NCBI RefSeq assembly: GCF_026427715.1
Contig: NZ_CP107558.1
Span: forward strand, 1,835,001 to 1,899,000
Length of the DNA: 64,000 bases
Direction: 5' to 3'
Origin: Methylocystis sp. MJC1
GTDB lineage: Bacteria > Pseudomonadota > Alphaproteobacteria > Rhizobiales > Beijerinckiaceae
A program made the position numbers and the translations under genes. How positions within the stretch are numbered: the stretch's first letter is position 1; each line of letters begins with the position of its first letter. Below, in pieces: positions 6,276 through 63,930 of the stretch. Under the pieces are notes generated by a model. It was not told the DNA's origin. It did no database searches and saw nothing but the letters and a program-made list of their open reading frames with translations.

Positions 6276-7310
6276 ATGGCTTATAAGGTCGCCATCGTCG
6301 GCGCCACAGGTAATGTGGGCCGCGAGATGCTGGATATTTTGGCGGAGCGCCGCTTCCCTGTGTCGGAAGTCGTGCCGCTCGCCTCTTCGCGCTCGATCGG
6401 CGTGGAGGTCTCCTTCGGCGACAAGACGCTCAAATGCCGCCATCTCGACACCTATGACTTCTCCGACACCGACATCTGCCTGATGTCCGCCGGCGGGAGC
6501 GTGTCGACGCAATGGTCGCCGAAGATCGGCGCGCAGGGCTGCGTCGTCATCGACAATTCCTCGGCCTGGCGCATGGACCCGGACGTGCCGTTGGTCGTGC
6601 CGGAGGTGAACGCCGACGCGGCCGCGGGCTTCAAGAAAAAGAACATCATCGCCAATCCGAACTGCTCCACCGCGCAGCTCGTCGTGGCGCTGAAGCCGCT
6701 GCACGACAAGGCTAAGATCAAGCGCGTTGTGGTTTCGACCTATCAGTCGGTCTCCGGCGCTGGCAAGGACGCGATGGACGAGCTGTTCGCCCAGACGCGT
6801 TCCGTCTTCGTCTCCGACCCGGTCGAAGCGAAGAAATTCCCCAAGCGCATCGCCTTCAACCTCATTCCGCAGATCGACTCCTTCATGGAGGACGGCTTCA
6901 CCAAGGAAGAGTGGAAGATGGTCGTGGAGACGAAGAAGATCCTCGACCCGAAGATCAAGCTCGTCGCCACCTGCGTGCGCGTGCCGGTCTTCATCTCGCA
7001 TTCCGAAGCGGTGAACATCGAATTCGAGAATCCCATCTCGGCGGACGAGGCGCGCGACATCCTGCGCGAGGCCCCGGGCGTGCTCGTCATCGACAAGCAT
7101 GAGCCCGGCGGCTACATCACGCCGCATGAGGCGGCCGGCGAGGACGCGACCTATATTTCGCGCATCCGCGACGACCCGACCGTGGACAACGGCCTCGTGC
7201 TTTGGTGCGTGAGCGACAATCTGCGCAAAGGCGCGGCGCTCAACGCCGTGCAGATCGCGGAAGTGCTGATGAACCGCAACCTCATCACGCCGAAGAAAGC
7301 GGCTGCGTAA
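6276..7310 (+). CDS. asd: Aspartate-semialdehyde dehydrogenase
   Basis: This 344-residue cytosolic enzyme reduces aspartyl phosphate with NADPH to aspartate semialdehyde, the branch point to lysine (and diaminopimelate for peptidoglycan), threonine and methionine. The NADP-binding motif GATGNVGREM lies at residues 9-18. The catalytic Cys lies in NPNCSTAQLV (about 130-139). TYQSVSGAGK and the substrate-binding region RVPVFISHSE are also present. GGAGAAAGTTC precedes the ATG. The preceding step, aspartokinase (lysC), is encoded about 44 kb away in this window. A strong terminator follows. Confidence 0.96.
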   Translation: MAYKVAIVGATGNVGREMLDILAERRFPVSEVVPLASSRSIGVEVSFGDKTLKCRHLDTYDFSDTDICLMSAGGSVSTQWSPKIGAQGCVVIDNSSAWRMDPDVPLVVPEVNADAAAGFKKKNIIANPNCSTAQLVVALKPLHDKAKIKRVVVSTYQSVSGAGKDAMDELFAQTRSVFVSDPVEAKKFPKRIAFNLIPQIDSFMEDGFTKEEWKMVVETKKILDPKIKLVATCVRVPVFISHSEAVNIEFENPISADEARDILREAPGVLVIDKHEPGGYITPHEAAGEDATYISRIRDDPTVDNGLVLWCVSDNLRKGAALNAVQIAEVLMNRNLITPKKAAA

Positions 7311-7335
7311 GCGCCCCGGTCCTTGCAGAAATTTG

Positions 7336-7363
7336 AGCCCGGGGCTGACGCCTCGGGCTTTTT
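7336..7363 (+). terminator. Intrinsic terminator after asd
   Basis: AGCCCGGGGC and GCCTCGGGCT form a near-perfect stem around a TGAC loop, followed directly by TTTT. It lies 26 nt after the asd stop codon. Confidence 0.8.
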
Positions 7364-7438
7364 CACGGAAGTGATGGGAGCGAGCTTGGTTGTTCCCCAG
7401 TCATACAATTTCCCTTTGAACAGCTCGCGTTGGCCGTT

Positions 7439-7531
7439 GTCATTCCCGGCGGGCTGAAAGCCCGACCGGGAATCCAGAGCCACAATAGCGCTGATTTCGC
7501 TCTGGATTCCCGATCGCTCGCTTCGCGAGCG
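7439..7531. repeat. GTCATTCCCGGCGGGC repeat (copy 1)
   Basis: This roughly 93-bp element begins GTCATTCCCGGCGGGC, has an internal hairpin (CCCGGCGGGC...GACCGGGAAT), then CCAGAGC...GCTCTGG and ATTCCCGATCGCTCGCTTCG. A near-identical copy lies at 43173-43275 and a shorter relative at 25063-25104. This copy contains the stop codon of the SulP gene. Confidence 0.75.
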
Positions 7532-9170
7532 TCCTTGTCGCTTCCTCGACGCTGTGGAACAGGCGCGCTGAGCCCAGCGCTTTCATGATCCCGAATTGCT
7601 CGAAGCTGCGATGCGCGCGCACCGATTCTAGCCGCGCGATAGCGAAGTCGACTTTCCTGACCCGACAGGCCTCGATCGCCTCGCGCAGCGCCTGGGCTGC
7701 GGAATAGTCGATCTCGACGATGCTGCTCGCTTCCAGCACGAGGAGGCGCAAGGAGCCGTCGGCGCGGTCGATCGCCGCGGTCATGTCGCGGCGAAAGAGA
7801 TCGGCGTTGAGGAAGGAGAGCGGCGCCTGGAAGGCGACGACGAGAACGCCAGGGAGTTGTTCACCGCGATGCACCGGGGAGACCGGCCACCAGACGGTCG
7901 TGCCGGGGATGCGATCAAATTCGATGAGCCGCGTGCGGGTCGCCGTCCACACGCCGTGGAGCAATGACAGGATGATGGCGATGGCGACGCCCTCCTGCAC
8001 CGGTAGCAGCACGATGGACAGCATGGTGACGAGGACGAGCAGGAACTCGGTCCGCGTCGCGCGAAAGATCGCCAGCATGTCGCGCCAGCGGAAGATGCGA
8101 TAGGCGACGAACATCAGCACGGCAGCGAGCGCCGCCGTCGGCGTCTGCGCCAAGGCCCCGCCGCCGAAGAAGAGCACGCCGGCGACGATCGCCGCCGCAA
8201 CGAGCCCGGAGAGCTGGCTCGCGCCGCCGCTCGCAACGACGATCGCCGTGCGCGGCGGGCTGGCGTTCACCGCAAAGGCGCCGAAGAGGCCGGAGAGCAA
8301 GCTTCCTGCGCCGGCTCCCATAAAATCCCTGTCTATATCCGGATTGACATCGCGCGCTGCGAAGGCGCGGGAGGTGGCCGAGGTCTGCACCATGACAAGC
8401 AGCGCGATGACCATGGCGAGGCTGAAGACCTGCCGAATGTCGGTGGAGCCAATATCCGGAACGCTCAGCCGAGGCGCGCCATGGGCGATGGAGCCGAGGA
8501 GTGCCACGCCCTCCTTGCCGAGGTCGAAATGGCTCACGGCCCATGTCGCGCCGCCGAGCGCAATCAGCGCGCCAGGGATGCGGGGGCTCAATTCCTCAAA
8601 AACAACAATGGCTGCAAGGCAAAGGACGCCGATCAGCATGGTCGGGCCATAGGCTGCGCCAATATGGCTCGCGAGCGCCATGATGCGCGATTGTATATCG
8701 CCATGCTCCGTCGGCAGGCCGAAAAAGGCGGGCGCCTGGGAAAGGGCGATATGGATGGAAATGCCGGCGAGAAAGCCTGTGAGTACGGGTACAGACAGGA
8801 GATCGGCGATCCAGCCGGCGCGCAGCAGCCCGGCGAGGATGAGCGCGCCGCCGACGATGAGCGCCAGAAGCGAGGCCAGCGCGGCGTAATGGGGCGAACC
8901 CGTCGCTGCGAGGAGCGCGAGCCCTCCAGCGAAGATCGGCGCGATCGTCGAATCCGCGCCGACTGAAACCGCCCGGCTCGAGCCGAAAGCCGCGAAGGCC
9001 AGCGTGCCGGCAATGAAGGCGATGAAGCCGATATGGGGCGGAAAGCCCGCCAGCCGGGAGGTCGCCATCTGTTCGGGAATGGCGATTGCCGCGAGCGTCA
9101 GCCCGGCCACGAGGTCGGCGCGCAGACTAACGCCGCGCAGTCCCGCAAAAGGCCAGGAGCCTTCCGCCAT
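7440..9170 (-). CDS. SulP/SLC26-family anion transporter with STAS domain
   Basis: This 576-residue inner-membrane transporter has 10-12 hydrophobic segments in residues 15-415 and a cytoplasmic STAS domain at about 440-545. The N-terminal AIPEQMATSRLAGFPPHIG and the SVGADSTIAPI segment match the SulP core. Sulfate, bicarbonate or another anion is possible. The last 30 or so residues (from about AIGNPERNQ) and the stop are encoded by the intergenic repeat at 7439-7531, so the ancestral C-terminus has been replaced or extended. The ATG lies two bases after the lolA stop, which indicates one operon. Confidence 0.85.
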   Translation of the reverse strand: MAEGSWPFAGLRGVSLRADLVAGLTLAAIAIPEQMATSRLAGFPPHIGFIAFIAGTLAFAAFGSSRAVSVGADSTIAPIFAGGLALLAATGSPHYAALASLLALIVGGALILAGLLRAGWIADLLSVPVLTGFLAGISIHIALSQAPAFFGLPTEHGDIQSRIMALASHIGAAYGPTMLIGVLCLAAIVVFEELSPRIPGALIALGGATWAVSHFDLGKEGVALLGSIAHGAPRLSVPDIGSTDIRQVFSLAMVIALLVMVQTSATSRAFAARDVNPDIDRDFMGAGAGSLLSGLFGAFAVNASPPRTAIVVASGGASQLSGLVAAAIVAGVLFFGGGALAQTPTAALAAVLMFVAYRIFRWRDMLAIFRATRTEFLLVLVTMLSIVLLPVQEGVAIAIILSLLHGVWTATRTRLIEFDRIPGTTVWWPVSPVHRGEQLPGVLVVAFQAPLSFLNADLFRRDMTAAIDRADGSLRLLVLEASSIVEIDYSAAQALREAIEACRVRKVDFAIARLESVRAHRSFEQFGIMKALGSARLFHSVEEATRTLAKRAIGNPERNQRYCGSGFPVGLSARRE

Positions 9171-59527: not shown

Positions 59528-60589
59528 ATGCGCGTACTTGGCATTGAAACCACCTGCGACGAGACGGCGGCGGCCGTCGTGTCGGACCGCCTCGGAGGCG
59601 AGGGCGGGGACATTCTCTCCAATGAAGTCCTGAGCCAGATCGCCCAGCATGCGGTTTATGGCGGCGTCGTGCCGGAGATCGCCGCGCGCGCCCATATCGA
59701 CGTTCTCGACCGGCTGATCGTGCGGGCGCTCGCGAACGCCAAAGTGGAATTGTCGGACATCGACGCCATCGCTGCGGCGGCCGGGCCGGGCCTCATCGGC
59801 GGCGTGCTGATCGGCCTCACCGCCGCCAAGGGATTGGCGCTCGCCTCTGGCAAGCCCTTCATCGCCGTGAACCATCTCGAAGCCCATGCGCTCACGGCGC
59901 GGCTCACTGATCCTCTCGACTTTCCCTATGTCGCGCTGCTTGTTTCGGGCGGGCATACGCAGCTCGTCGCCATCCGCGACGTCGGCGATTATCGCCGTCT
60001 CGGATCGACGATCGACGACGCTGCCGGCGAAGCCTTCGACAAGGTCGCGAAAATGCTGGGTCTGCCTTATCCCGGCGGCCCGCAGATCGAAAAGCTCGCC
60101 CAGGAGGGCGACGCCCGTCGCTTCGATTTTCCGCGACCGATGCTCGGACGCGGCGGCGCGGATTTCTCGCTTTCCGGCCTCAAGACGGCCGTGCGACAGG
60201 AAGTCCTCAAGCTCGGAACGCCGAGCGATCAGGACGTGAAGGATATTGCCGCTTCCTTCCAGGCGGCAATCGTCGACGTCATCGTGGATCGGGTGCGCGG
60301 CGGCATAAAACTATTCACGGAAGGAGAGGGGCGTCCGAGCGGCCTCGTGATCGGCGGCGGCGTCGCCGCCAATGGCGCGATCCGCCGCGCGCTGACGCGG
60401 CTTTGCGCCGAGAGCGGCCTGCGTTTCGTCTCGCCCCCGCCGGTTCTGTGCTCCGACAATGGCGCGATCATCGCCTGGGCTGGATTGGAGCGCTTCAAGC
60501 GCGGCTTTCGCGATGACCTCGGCTTCGCGCCGCGGCCGCGTTGGCCGCTCGACGCGATCGCCAGCGGAGCCCACCACGGCAAGGCCTAA
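59528..60589 (+). CDS. tsaD: tRNA N6-threonylcarbamoyladenosine transferase subunit TsaD
   Basis: This 353-residue protein transfers threonylcarbamoyl to A37 of ANN-decoding tRNAs. The N-terminal [15 protein letters not shown] starts the ASKHA fold. [12 protein letters not shown] holds the metal-binding His pair, and [16 protein letters not shown] ([16 protein letters not shown]), [13 protein letters not shown] and [12 protein letters not shown] are family blocks. CAGGGAG precedes the ATG. The stop lies 4 nt before the PLD gene's GTG. Confidence 0.95.
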
Positions 60590-60593
60590 AGCG

Positions 60594-61133
60594 GTGCGTC
60601 GCCAATTCGCTTTGGCGCTCGTCGCCATGTTGGCGGCGCCCGAGCCGCAGGCTGCGGGCCCCTTGTCGCAGGAGCCGCTATTCGCCGGCGTGCGCGTCTT
60701 TTATGGACCTGGCGACGGTTTCGAGAGCATCGACGCCAAGCTCATCAATGGCGCGCGCCATTCGATCGACATGGCCGCCTATGTGCTCACCGATCGCGCC
60801 CTGGTCGCCGCGCTCGGCCGCGCCGCCATGCGCGGCGTGAAGGTGCGGATCTATCTCGATGGAGAGGAGTTCAGGCGCGGGTCTCCGATCCTGGACGTCG
60901 CCGGCGCGCCAAACCTCGAGGTACGCCGCAAGGCCCGCTCGCGCGACCTCATGCATTTGAAATCCTACCAGGTGGACGGCGCCACGCTGCGCTCAGGCTC
61001 CGCGAATTTTTCCGTCTCCGGCGAAGTTTATCAGGACAATGATTTGATCGTAATCCAGAGCCCTACGGCGGTGGCGCACTTTCTCGAGGCGTTCGAGCGG
61101 TTGTGGACCAGACCAGACAATCAGCGGCCCTAG
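60594..61133 (+). CDS. Phospholipase D-family protein, single HKD motif
   Basis: This 179-residue exported protein starts with GTG at 60594 and a short signal peptide (RRQFALALVAMLAAPEPQAA). It has one HKD motif, HLKSYQVDGATLRSGSANF (His, Lys, Asp, GSxN), so it likely acts as a dimer like Nuc and related PLD-family nucleases. The N-terminal FYGPGDGFESIDAKLINGAR resembles the Nuc group. It may cut DNA in the periplasm or act on lipid. It lies 4 nt after tsaD and is probably co-transcribed. Confidence 0.87.
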   Translation: MRRQFALALVAMLAAPEPQAAGPLSQEPLFAGVRVFYGPGDGFESIDAKLINGARHSIDMAAYVLTDRALVAALGRAAMRGVKVRIYLDGEEFRRGSPILDVAGAPNLEVRRKARSRDLMHLKSYQVDGATLRSGSANFSVSGEVYQDNDLIVIQSPTAVAHFLEAFERLWTRPDNQRP

Positions 61134-61175
61134 TAGTGAACAATGCTCAAAATTATTTTGATCTATAGTGGTGTA

Positions 61176-61203
61176 TTGACAGTCAAATTCGTTAACGTTG
61201 CCG
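61176..61203 (+). promoter_or_regulatory. Conserved TTGACAGTC promoter element, unit 1
   Basis: TATTGACAGTC starts 165 nt before the ATG of the secreted-protein gene. It matches ATATTGACAGTC of unit 2, also 164 nt before its ATG. TTGACA is a perfect -35 hexamer; the sequence 17 nt downstream (TGCCGA vs TGCATG) is not a classical -10, though TTGC is shared. It is likely a promoter with a long leader. Confidence 0.5.
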
Positions 61204-61288
61204 ATCAATCAGGGTGATGAATAATATAACGATGCGATGCGGACAAATGATGTACTGAAACATGGAGCCTATTTTCTATTTCAGCTTT

Positions 61289-61312
61289 CGAAGCCGGCGA
61301 CGCCCGACTTCG
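61289..61312 (+). other. Leader hairpin, unit 1
   Basis: CGAAG (61289-61293) pairs with CTTCG (61308-61312) around GGCGACGCC-type loop sequence. The equivalent in unit 2 (62024-62045) has a longer stem. It ends 28-29 nt before the start codon, so it may regulate ribosome access or mRNA stability. Confidence 0.45.
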
Positions 61313-61340
61313 CAGTGATGGAAAAAATAGGAGCGAACAA

Positions 61341-61667
61341 ATGAAAAAGTTTCTTATCTCCGCGGCCTTCGTCGCTCTGACCGCGGGCTCGGCTTTTGCC
61401 CAGGGCGGTAGCATTACGGTGGGCGGCAACTTCAATCCCGGCGCGGTCACCTTTGGCAGCGTGTCCAACTCCGCCACCCAGAGCCTTACCACGACGGTGA
61501 GAAACAACTCTCCGGCGACCGCCGGCAACGCCACCGCCAGCACGGGGGCCGGCGCCATGGGAACGGCGACGGCCCTCTCGGCCGCCTCGACGGTGAACAC
61601 CCAGACCGTGACGCCCACCAACGCGATCTCGTTCACGAACAGTCTGGCGCAGACCCTCAACTACTAA
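61341..61667 (+). CDS. Small secreted Thr/Asn/Ala-rich protein (paralog A)
   Basis: This 108-residue protein has a signal peptide (MKKFLISAAFVALTAGSAFA) and a mature domain of about 87 residues: QGGSITVGGNFNPGAVTFGS, then Thr/Asn/Ser/Ala-rich sequence ending FTNSLAQTLNY. It has no cysteine, few charges and a beta-prone alternating pattern. ATAGGAGCGAAC precedes the ATG. It is a close paralog of the gene at 62073 and shares its leader and 3' hairpin. The family is not one I know. Confidence 0.8.
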   Translation: MKKFLISAAFVALTAGSAFAQGGSITVGGNFNPGAVTFGSVSNSATQSLTTTVRNNSPATAGNATASTGAGAMGTATALSAASTVNTQTVTPTNAISFTNSLAQTLNY

Positions 61668-61699
61668 GGCGAGCATCCTGGCGCCAGGACTGCAATGAA

Positions 61700-61733
61700 G
61701 GACTGTGGCGGCGCCCAAACGCCGCCGTAGTCC
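61700..61733 (+). terminator. Conserved 3' hairpin, unit 1
   Basis: GGACT-GT-GGCGGCG and CGCCGCC-GT-AGTCC form a strong interrupted stem 33 nt after the stop codon. The hairpin of unit 2 is also 33 nt after its stop. No T-run follows, so it may be a Rho-independent terminator of weak type or a stabiliser. Confidence 0.6.
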
Positions 61734-61908
61734 ACCTGACTTTGACGGCGGGCTCGCGCGCGGGGCCCGCCTCTTTTCGGGCCGCGAGGGCTCCTTGGCT
61801 CTGCGGCGCCAGCGCGCTTCCGCCAGGCTTCGGATGGCTGTTGGAGGGCGTATAATCTGCGACTGTGCTATGAACATCGATCAAACACATTTAGTCTAAA
61901 ATGACATA

Positions 61909-61936
61909 TTGACAGTCTATTTGGCTAGCGTTGCAT
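61909..61936 (+). promoter_or_regulatory. Conserved TTGACAGTC promoter element, unit 2
   Basis: ATATTGACAGTCTATTTGGC repeats the unit-1 element at the same distance (164 nt) from the start codon. The rest of the 61738-61908 spacer is G+C-rich and gene-free. Confidence 0.5.
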
Positions 61937-62023
61937 GTCATGAGTGGTTATAGATATGTATATCTCCAGACGTATAAGAAAGTTATGGCTGGATAATCTC
62001 GCGGTAATTCTATTTTAGTTCCG

Positions 62024-62045
62024 GAAGACGGCGACGCCGGTCTTC
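62024..62045 (+). other. Leader hairpin, unit 2
   Basis: GAAGAC (62024-62029) pairs with GTCTTC (62040-62045) and GGC with GCC inside, around a GAC loop. It is the counterpart of 61289-61312 and is better paired. Confidence 0.45.
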
Positions 62046-62072
62046 ACTATGAGTGGAACTAGGAGCGAAACC

Positions 62073-62399
62073 ATGAAAAAATTTCTTGTGTCGATCGCGT
62101 TGGTCGCTCTGACCGCGGGTTCGGCTTTTGCCCAAGGCGGCGCGATCACGGTAGGAGGCTCTTTTACGCCCGGGGCGGTCGGCTTCGGCGGCGTGTTCAA
62201 CTCCGCAGGTCAGACACTCAACACGACGGTGACCAACAACGCTCCGGCAAGGGCCGGCGCGGCTTCGGCCATCACGGGTACTGGGAACGGTGGATCGGCG
62301 ACCGCCATTTCCGCAGCCTCGACGTCGAACACCCAGTATGTTTCGCCCATGAACTACATCTCCTTCTCCAACACTCTGAGGCAGAGCCTCAACTACTGA
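62073..62399 (+). CDS. Small secreted Thr/Asn/Ala-rich protein (paralog B)
   Basis: This 108-residue protein has the same size as paralog A. The signal peptide is MKKFLVSIALVALTAGSAFA. The mature part starts QGGAITVGGSFTPGAVGFGG and ends FSNTLRQSLNY. AGGAGCGAAACC precedes the ATG. The two mature proteins share ITVGG-F-PGAV-FG-V-NSA-Q-L-TTV-NN-PA-AG. The differences are spread along the chain, so the duplication is not recent. No enzymatic motif is visible. Confidence 0.8.
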   Translation: MKKFLVSIALVALTAGSAFAQGGAITVGGSFTPGAVGFGGVFNSAGQTLNTTVTNNAPARAGAASAITGTGNGGSATAISAASTSNTQYVSPMNYISFSNTLRQSLNY

Positions 62400-62431
62400 A
62401 GACGAGCAGCCCAGCGCTGAGATTGCGGTGA

Positions 62432-62465
62432 GGACTGTGGCGGCGCGCCAACGCCGCCGCAGTCT
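62432..62465 (+). terminator. Conserved 3' hairpin, unit 2
   Basis: GGACT-GT-GGCGGCG and CGCCGCC-GC-AGTCT form the same interrupted stem as in unit 1, at the same distance (33 nt) from the stop codon. Confidence 0.6.
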
Positions 62466-62547
62466 CCCTACCGTTGAACCCAACGACTTTCATGCTCGCG
62501 CGGTTATGCCGCAACGCAAGGAGCTCTGACCAGGAAGGGGTATAAGT

Positions 62548-62811
62548 ATGAGGAAGTTTTTGTTGGCTGCCGTCGCCGCAATCAGCGCCGGGTCGGCTTA
62601 TGCTCAATCACCCATTGTGGTGAATGCGTCTCCGAACATCAACGTCTTGACACAGCTCATGGTGACTGTGCCGGTCAATGTCAGTCCCGCAACCGCAGTG
62701 GCTGTTTCCGTCTATGGCAATTCCGCCGCCAAAGCCAATACGATCAACTTTCAGGGCGTTTCGGCGGCAAACCAGGGATGGATTAACACGAACTTCGTCT
62801 CGGGGTTCTGA
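62548..62811 (+). CDS. Small secreted Val/Asn/Ala-rich protein (distant relative)
   Basis: This 87-residue protein has a signal peptide (MRKFLLAAVAAISAGSAYA) resembling the two upstream proteins. The mature part (QSPIVVNASPNINVLTQLMV to WINTNFVSGF) is beta-prone, cysteine-free and nearly uncharged. AGGAAGGGG precedes its ATG. It lacks the long leader and fixed hairpins of the tandem units. A GCCGCC/GGCGGC hairpin follows its stop. It may belong to the same functional group. Confidence 0.72.
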   Translation: MRKFLLAAVAAISAGSAYAQSPIVVNASPNINVLTQLMVTVPVNVSPATAVAVSVYGNSAAKANTINFQGVSAANQGWINTNFVSGF

Positions 62812-62940
62812 GCGGAGAGCGCCGCCGGGGGCGGCCTCTTGCTTGGCAGGGGCCGCTGTCCGTTCTGTGGCGCGCGACGTCTACCGGTTTAGGGATCCGA
62901 TCGTTATAGAAGGGCGGCAAGCATCAGCGGATCGGATGGG

Positions 62941-63930
62941 ATGACGCGCGAAAATATCGCAGTTCTCGGCGCTGGCGCCTGGGGGGTGGCGCTCGCCAAT
63001 GTCGCCGCGCAAGGACGCCAGCGCGTCGCCTTGTGGGCGCACGACCCCGGCCACGCGGAGACTCTCGCACGGGATCGAGAGAATAGACGGCATCTCCCCG
63101 GGTTGCCGCTCGCTCATGCGGTTGCGCCGACGAGCGATCTCGCCTGCGTCGCAGACGCGCATATCGTGCTCGCCGTCGTGCCGGCTCAGGCCGTGCGGGA
63201 AGTGGCGCGGGCGGTGCGCCCTCATGTTGCGGAAGGCGCCGCTTTCGTCATTTGCGCCAAGGGGATCGAGCGCGATCGTCGGCACTTCATGAGCGAGGTT
63301 GTCGCCGAGGAGCTGCCGCAAGCGCGGCCGGCCGTCCTCTCCGGCCCGAGCTTCGCGGCCGATGTCTGCAAGGGGCTGCCGACCGCCGTGACGCTCGCCG
63401 CTCCGGATGAGACGCTGGCGCAGAAGCTTTGCGAAGCGCTCTCGACCAAGACTTTTCGGCTCTATCGCTCGACTGACATTCGGGGCGTGGAGATCGGCGG
63501 CGCGGCAAAGAATGTCTTCGCCATTGCGGCGGGCATGGCCGCGGGGCGCCGGCTCGGCGCGAGCGCGCAGGCCGCGCTCATTGCGCGCAGCTTCGCCGAG
63601 CTTACGCGGCTCGGACGTGTGCTCGGCGCCAGAAGCGAGACGCTGATGGGGCTCTCCGGGCTCGGCGATCTGGTGCTGACCTGCGGCTCCGCGCAGTCGC
63701 GGAATTTTGCCTTCGGCCAGGCGTTGGGGCAGGGCACCGCCGTCAAGGACGCTTCCGGCGGCAAGCTGACCGAAGGCGCCTTCACGGCGCGGGTCCTGGT
63801 CGAGATGGCGCAGAAGGAAGGCGTCGAAATGCCGATCGCCGAGGCGGTCGACGCCATATTGTCGTCGCGCCTCAGCGTCGATTCGGCGATCGAGGCGCTT
63901 CTTATGCGGCCGCTGAAAGCGGAGGTCTGA
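62941..63930 (+). CDS. gpsA: Glycerol-3-phosphate dehydrogenase [NAD(P)+]
   Basis: This 329-residue enzyme reduces dihydroxyacetone phosphate to sn-glycerol-3-phosphate for phospholipid synthesis. The Rossmann motif AVLGAGAWGVALANVAA lies at about 6-22. FVICAKGIERD and VEIGGAAKNVFAIAAGMAAG hold the catalytic Lys residues, and GLSGLGDLVLTC is the C-terminal substrate motif. Length is normal. In many alphaproteobacteria gpsA lies near tsaD, as here. Its last 29 bases overlap the partial gene from the right edge. Confidence 0.95.
   Translation: MTRENIAVLGAGAWGVALANVAAQGRQRVALWAHDPGHAETLARDRENRRHLPGLPLAHAVAPTSDLACVADAHIVLAVVPAQAVREVARAVRPHVAEGAAFVICAKGIERDRRHFMSEVVAEELPQARPAVLSGPSFAADVCKGLPTAVTLAAPDETLAQKLCEALSTKTFRLYRSTDIRGVEIGGAAKNVFAIAAGMAAGRRLGASAQAALIARSFAELTRLGRVLGARSETLMGLSGLGDLVLTCGSAQSRNFAFGQALGQGTAVKDASGGKLTEGAFTARVLVEMAQKEGVEMPIAEAVDAILSSRLSVDSAIEALLMRPLKAEV

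Follow-up and report, generated by a model that had tools for sequence, protein, structure and literature searches.

Why would two neighbouring genes for small exported proteins each carry the same long leader and the same 3' hairpin, and is the whole unit kept together as one functional element? The question arises from a locus near the end of a 64,000-nucleotide stretch of Methylocystis DNA (the window; contig C1:1835001-1899000 of the 4.54-Mb genome G000). The initial annotation had described a tandem duplication of secreted-protein units with a shared leader and 3' hairpin, and had suggested from their spacing that the leader is functional, perhaps as an RNA regulator or a thermosensor. 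We confirmed the tandem duplication and found an additional third paralogue (62548..62811, +).

Layout of the tandem units

Both units lie on the forward strand, with an ORF that we named phospholipase-D-like (PLD-like) by eye on their left (60459..61133, +) and a gene that we likewise took to be gpsA-like on their right (62941..63930, +); these two genes form the borders of the added cluster. Unit 1 starts with an upstream block (ATTGACAGTC..GTTAACGTTGC, 61175..61201, +), a candidate promoter or operator. It is followed by a putative anti-Shine-Dalgarno arm (TTCTA, 61274..61278, +), an inner leader hairpin (GAAGCCGGC..GCCCGACTTC, 61290..61311, +), the Shine-Dalgarno sequence (SD, TAGGAG, 61328..61333, +), a gene for a low-charge exported protein of 108 aa (61341..61667, +) and a 3' hairpin of 14 pairs without a long U tract behind it (61700..61733, +). 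Unit 2 repeats this order on the same strand, with a conserved upstream block (61908..61934, +), a TTCTA arm (62008..62012, +), an inner hairpin (62024..62045, +), the SD TAGGAG (62060..62065, +), a paralogous gene of 108 aa with 70% identity to that of unit 1 (62073..62399, +) and a 3' hairpin, again of 14 pairs and without a long U tract (62432..62465, +).

Most of the distances proposed at the outset were reproduced. The shared TTGACAGTC element lies 165 nt (unit 1) and 164 nt (unit 2) before the ATG, both genes comprise 108 codons with a signal peptide that by eye ends between AxA and Q, and the GGACT of the 3' hairpin begins 33 nt past the stop codon in both units. The GAAG..CTTC leader hairpin, claimed to end 28-29 nt before the ATG, does so at 29 nt in unit 1 but at 27 nt in unit 2. 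Constant spacing holds for the two units of the window, but not in general: over the ten leader-bearing units described below, TTGACA lies 143-165 nt before the ATG (the exact word is missing in T1 and T2) and the distance from the stop codon to the start of the 3' stem is 32-38 nt.

The third paralogue is diverged, encodes 87 aa and is without the leader of units 1 and 2, as the leader covariance model had no match there. Its VNVSP core is common to the family members of a related genome, G010, which align along their full length with units 1 and 2. Unit 1 may end transcripts at two successive sites, the second being an intrinsic-terminator-like hairpin with a TCTTTT tail (61747..61771, +), although the scan finds sites of this kind about equally often in shuffled sequences. 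It listed none in the interval from unit 2 to the third gene.

The family among genomes and proteins

A single-sequence search of 5.8 billion proteins returned 10 proteins and a profile search at least 15, in both cases including the window's own; the profile search scored the 7991 candidates with the most shared words, and distant relatives may be missed. With a profile of the third paralogue, five proteins were found (the window's own included). The named relatives of the window proteins belong to Methylocystis. Within the genus, 7 of the 39 genomes matched the profile at E 0.01. We counted four carriers with full-length members (G000, G030, G061 and G010), because G020 and G025 match in the signal peptide only and G022 in residues 1-78 only, the latter being a different exported protein. 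In a sample of 297 genomes of the order, which did not show the other three carriers, seven matched at E 0.001, with a full-length match in the window's own genome only. The six others were rejected as partial; one of them ran across stop codons, and the five readable ones were by eye unrelated exported proteins. Viral contigs held no relative of the family.

Methylocystis sp. Sn-Cys (G030, locus L003, units S1 and S2) and G061 (L015, I1 and I2) share with the window (W1 and W2) all three genes and their position. Three full copies lie between the PLD-like gene and gpsA in G010 (contig C55, L013, T1-T3), together with a trace of the third paralogue. One further full copy (T4) is found on a separate contig (C21, L014) with an ORF that looks integrase-like by eye, and two partial copies, one cut by the contig end, complete the set. 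All ten leader-bearing units in the four genomes keep leader, gene and 3' hairpin. The computations thus establish the conservation of the whole unit for proteins of the 108-137 aa type, since the copies in three relatives retain both leader and hairpins and none of this type was found stripped of them. The leader is not general in the family, the third paralogue being without it.

The initial annotation had called the proteins unlike known families, and indeed there was no convincing match to any described one. Nothing better than E 0.044 was returned from Pfam for 15 members, the best NCBIfam match reached E 0.0086 (15.5 bits versus a cut-off of 274), and a profile search against solved structures gave a single match at E 0.088, which we regarded as chance. 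Among titles and abstract beginnings of the open-licence PubMed Central literature, nothing was found on these proteins. The family is an orphan, apparently undescribed and private to one clade.

Insertion and duplication as a block

The gene gpsA was found in 38 of the 39 genomes, and 30 loci were read. In 25 of them only a short gap separates the end of the PLD-like gene from gpsA, about 9 bp in 22 loci and 97-98 bp in 3, with gene ends extrapolated from the alignment. The remaining five are the four carriers and G031, which has a different insertion. Because the two genes nearly abut in 25 of the 30 loci, the cluster appears to have been added at their junction. Since the four carriers are also the best gpsA matches, a single gain in one clade would be the simplest reading, with G010 barely above G031 (160.7 versus 159.4 bits).

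G010 further contains a duplicated block of about 735 bp with 90% identity, which extends from the 3' end of the PLD-like gene through leader, gene and 3' hairpin (L013:5505-6239 and 6918-7654). T1 has the PLD-like gene on its left, and the copy lies at T2. As the block of T1 recurs at T2, gene and leader were duplicated together.

At the same junction, G031 carries an unrelated insertion with a 151-aa ORF (L117:5996-6451, -), presumably resembling a type III chaperone, and a 592-aa ORF (6491-8269, -).

Compensatory changes in the 3' hairpin

Predicted folding energies of the 3' hairpins are -26.5 kcal/mol in unit 1 and -28.9 in unit 2 (z -5.8), which none of 200 shuffles equalled. Across six of the ten units, folded at 37 C, energies ranged from -24.8 to -32 kcal/mol, all below the threshold of -19, with z of -5.5 to -7.4. 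An alignment of the hairpin contains 13 pairs, and 97.4% of its cells are paired. Both partners changed in three pairs (U-A to C-G, G-C to A-U and C-G to U-A), a number that 50 of 500 shuffles reached; in covariation score the hairpin surpassed each of the 500 shuffles and of the six slid versions, and in the count of changed cells each of the 500 shuffles. By these computations the 3' stem covaries and shows compensatory changes. Between W and S, the first 80 nt past the stop codon share 61/79 (unit 1) and 52/78 (unit 2) aligned bases, and the following 70 nt 27/64 and 39/68.

Within 10 nt after the stem, five of the ten units have fewer than three U (I1 2, T1 0, T2 0, T3 1, T4 2) and five have three to five (W1 3, W2 3, S1 3, S2 5, I2 5). 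We therefore do not apply the label 'I-shaped, U-lacking' to these hairpins as a group, half of which have at least three U. As reported for the related type II methanotroph Methylosinus sporium 5, U-lacking hairpins with fewer than three U account for 78% of the highly structured ends of transcripts, and 5' UTRs have a median of 63 nt (PMC12403871). On these figures, the 3' hairpin would be of a kind common in such bacteria, and a leader of more than 100 nt would lie above the median. The I- and L-shaped terminators mapped there, which were folded at 30 C rather than at 37 C as here, resemble ours in being strong GC-rich 3' hairpins with energies below -19 kcal/mol (PMC12403871). They differ in that we deal with a gene-specific conserved element with compensatory changes, whose units fall by U content on both sides of the border drawn there (PMC12403871).

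A model of the 3' hairpin (R2) matched in 34 of the 39 genomes at E 0.05. Apart from the ten units and two remnants in G010, its matches were weak (no better than E 6e-5, in several cases the opposite strand of the same hairpins) and were taken as chance GC-rich hairpins. A CGTCATTGCGAGCGAAGCGAAGCAATC-like stretch follows the first unit of Sn-Cys (S1, L003) and of G061 (I1, L015) and is missing from the 150 nt that follow unit 1 of the window. We take it to resemble a known type of palindromic repeat.

A leader stem that may cover the Shine-Dalgarno sequence

In comparisons of W with S, the last 70 nt before the ATG share 53/65 (unit 1) and 57/69 (unit 2) aligned bases, and the stretch from -166 to -71 shares 59/81 and 62/95. 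Among units, the inner hairpin (GAAGCCGGC..GCCGG(T)CTTC) hardly varies, and the SD is invariant across all ten. Conserved leader pairing with compensatory changes had been proposed as the mark of an RNA element; the pairing is predicted, but conservation of the inner hairpin is mainly at the level of sequence: one analysis found no pair with changes on both sides, and the fold of ten leaders a single closing pair.

RNAalifold applied to the ten full leaders (199 columns) returned one compound structure and nothing else: the inner hairpin and an enclosing stem in which TTCTAT-TTC pairs with GAA-ATAGGA, i.e. the SD is covered. This consensus fold has 18 pairs, of which two show changes on both sides; both lie outside the five pairs between arm and SD, where two-sided change is missing because the SD is invariant. 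For further statistics we excluded I1 and I2, which are near-copies of S1 and S2, from the alignment A8, the single-unit arm shuffles and the 8-unit shuffles. The eight distinct units folded with an energy z of -4.9 against whole-column shuffles (0/500 as good). When the columns of the 5' arm alone were shuffled, z was -3.1 (11/500), and 5 of 500 shuffles attained the nine outer pairs. The outer stem was not returned by the differently aligned set A8, which places the arm one column off in S1 and T3.

Single units gave a mixed picture. The SD is predicted to be mostly paired with the arm in 8/8 distinct units (0.66-1.00), but shuffled arms themselves pair with it at a mean of 0.51-0.76. Of 1000 arm shuffles, few paired as well or better in T1 (4), T3 (5), S2 (9) and S1 (37), more in T2 (55), T4 (100) and W2 (182), and most in W1 (598), whose arm pairs with TAGGA in the consensus fold and is singly the weakest of the eight. 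When arms were swapped in silico, the own arm ranked 1 or 2 of 4 within the W/S group, but T arms outdid it in all four W/S columns; within the T group, own arms ranked 2, 2, 1 and 4 (T1 to T4). The arm sequence TCCTA of T1-T3 is the exact complement of TAGGA, T1 and T2 being a recent duplication.

A leader covariance model (R1), built from the eight units of A8, matched exactly the ten units in the 39 genomes at E 0.05; by this computation the leader is private to the family. Since the shuffles ignore relatedness and three lineages only, with T1/T2 as a recent duplication, enter these statistics, we grade SD gating by the upstream arm as moderately supported. The idea of the leader as an RNA element likewise gains moderate support from the conserved inner hairpin and the predicted pairing of arm and SD, and an RNA control element is credible but unproven.

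Predicted response to temperature

In the ten full-length leaders the SD is occluded in silico at 20 C, with unpaired probabilities of 0.00-0.39. For leaders taken from -170, accessibility between 20 and 55 C went from 0.39 to 0.39 (W1), 0.21 to 0.30 (W2), 0.00 to 0.04 (S1), 0.12 to 0.04 (S2), 0.00 to 0.01 (T1), 0.00 to 0.16 (T2), 0.00 to 0.02 (T3) and 0.21 to 0.32 (T4). Over all ten the change was at most 0.16, and at most 0.04 in six. Constructs cut 25 nt before the hairpin opened more in some units, by up to 0.27 (T2, 0.07 to 0.34; W2, 0.20 to 0.39; T4, 0.14 to 0.34). The thermosensor-like leader of the initial annotation was not supported, and within the limits of the energy model the predicted melting speaks against a thermometer.

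The upstream block

The pattern ATTGACAGTC-N3-TT-N-GYTARCGTTGC has two matches genome-wide at up to three mismatches, both at units 1 and 2. The block may be a promoter, an operator or both. A sigma-70 promoter with TTGACA as -35 was rejected, as by eye no -10 element stands at 16-18 nt. The promoter scan reported TTGCCG-16-AATAAT at 61198, in unit 1 only, with two sites in the region versus 0.7 in shuffles. T3 and T4 show a TTGAC-N10-GTCAA dyad, which is degenerate in the other units. By eye, the block is unlike the TYGMSV-N17-TATAHT consensus reported for Methylosinus sporium 5 (PMC12403871).

Nearly charge-free exported proteins

The mature proteins of units 1 and 2 contain one and two charged residues, respectively, no acidic residue and no cysteine. 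We extended this analysis to 13 genes (the ten units and three third paralogues), in which a signal peptide recognised by eye is followed by 67-118 residues. Their mature parts hold 0-3 charged residues (K, R, H, D, E) and no cysteine, and 57-76% of them is G/A/S/T/N/Q. The C-terminus is mostly aromatic (LNY, VLY, ILF), with the S3 and I3 copies as exceptions. Six scanned regions (window, L013-L016 and L117) contain 498 distinct ORFs of 87 aa or more; the 12 with at most three K/R/H/D/E among their last 86 aa all belong to the family. The proposed cysteine-free, low-charge composition was thus computed for all 13 genes, but P0015, a distant metagenomic relative, does contain cysteines.

AlphaFold gave no fold for the two protein types (pLDDT 41.7 with a 17-row alignment and 38.1 with 9 rows). 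The mature parts yielded dN/dS values of 0.43-0.48 in four comparisons among units 1 and 2 of W and S, and of 0.33-0.58 in three comparisons among G010 copies, versus 0.11 for the third gene and 0.02, 0.17 and 0.10 for the neighbours tsaD, PLD-like and gpsA. The proteins are therefore constrained, and purifying selection on them follows from the computation, yet unit types 1 and 2 evolve fast. Gene and RNA leader duplicate as one block, while the coding part evolves faster than its neighbours.

A cassette model and its rivals

The reading that we favour, tentatively and at somewhat less than an even chance, is that of lineage-specific tandem cassettes for exported proteins, with an SD-covering leader, a 3' hairpin and, as product, a surface or matrix protein that assembles itself and is subject to translational control of its own. 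A family of small exported Methylocystis proteins would have been tandemly duplicated and inserted between the PLD-like gene and gpsA. The two larger genes would each form a separate expression cassette, with a promoter/operator block, a leader of probably ~110-140 nt, the gene and the 3' hairpin. In the leader, a pyrimidine arm (TTCTA/TCCTA) would pair with TAGGA of the SD around the inner GC-rich hairpin. With the SD in this stem, translation would be expected only after ribosomes, a protein or another RNA have opened it. The 3' hairpin would end or protect the message. The product would be exported via Sec and cleaved between AxA and Q. Outside the cytoplasm it would most likely self-assemble as a surface or matrix polymer, given its almost complete lack of charge and its 57-76% of G/A/S/T/N/Q; because structure prediction yielded no fold, this role is read from composition alone. 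If true, type II methanotrophs would possess their own material for the cell surface or matrix, and leader, export signal and 3' hairpin would make up a compact natural cassette. The bolder claim of a new class of nearly charge-free exported polymers in one clade of methane oxidisers, with a new family-specific SD-sequestering leader copied per gene, we consider unlikely.

The leader could also act as nothing more than an mRNA-stabilising 5' hairpin, perhaps with a pyrimidine tract for ribosomal protein S1, which together with the 3' hairpin would give a long-lived, highly translated message without any switch. The near-invariance of the inner hairpin and the ease with which shuffled arms pair with the SD fit such a role. 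However, the arm is kept as an SD complement, exact as TCCTA in T1-T3 even if T1/T2 are a recent duplication, and only 5/500 arm-column shuffles reached the number of outer pairs, and we regard a purely stabilising leader as a serious but on balance doubtful possibility. An RNA thermometer, whose SD would open on warming, is the least probable of the alternatives, and we consider it very improbable. ROSE and other RNA thermometers sequester the SD, and the leader shares with them a predicted SD-covering 5' stem, here beside a hairpin in a long leader, and an alphaproteobacterial host. The greater opening of the cut T2, W2 and T4 constructs points the same way. In contrast to these thermometers, the full-length leaders show little predicted melting, the genes are not heat-shock genes, and the searches of Rfam came up empty, at gathering score across the whole window and, for ROSE, up to E 10 across 61140-62960.

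Secreted antagonists or signals instead of structural polymers, bacteriocin-like and fast evolving, would account for the tandem copies and for mature dN/dS values of 0.33-0.58 against 0.02-0.17 in tsaD, the PLD-like gene and gpsA. We nevertheless find this rather improbable: the direct neighbours, PLD-like and gpsA by eye, include no obvious immunity or processing gene, the window's three proteins had no PADLOC match at E 0.1, convincing Pfam or NCBIfam matches are missing as well, and the third paralogue is well conserved (0.11). Curli subunits (CsgA/CsgB, PF07012) are small, exported, rich in G/A/S/T/N/Q and encoded as tandem paralogues, and the low-charge export substrates described here resemble them in all these respects. 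Moreover, two small curlin-like ORFs occur elsewhere in the same genome. But the family has hardly any charge and is without the curlin repeat, since Curlin_rpt (PF07012) was absent among the matches of the 15 members at E 1 and of the third paralogue. CsgG gave no match at E 0.01 in the window's genome, whereas 4 of 14 control genomes, E. coli and Caulobacter included, were positive. A curli-type functional amyloid system is accordingly quite unlikely.

The two curlin-like ORFs of the same genome (G000 C1:1122442; L065:907-1200 and 1258-1590, +) encode small exported proteins. The second matches Curlin_rpt with 20.7 bits, at the Pfam cut-off, and the first is curlin-like by eye; they may represent a possible curli-like system without the usual channel. 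G022 likewise encodes two small exported N/Q/A-rich proteins in tandem (L020:1501-1854 and 1979-2278, +), similar in style to the family. The first is the one that matches the family profile over residues 1-78 only, and the second contains a sub-threshold curlin repeat (E 0.099).
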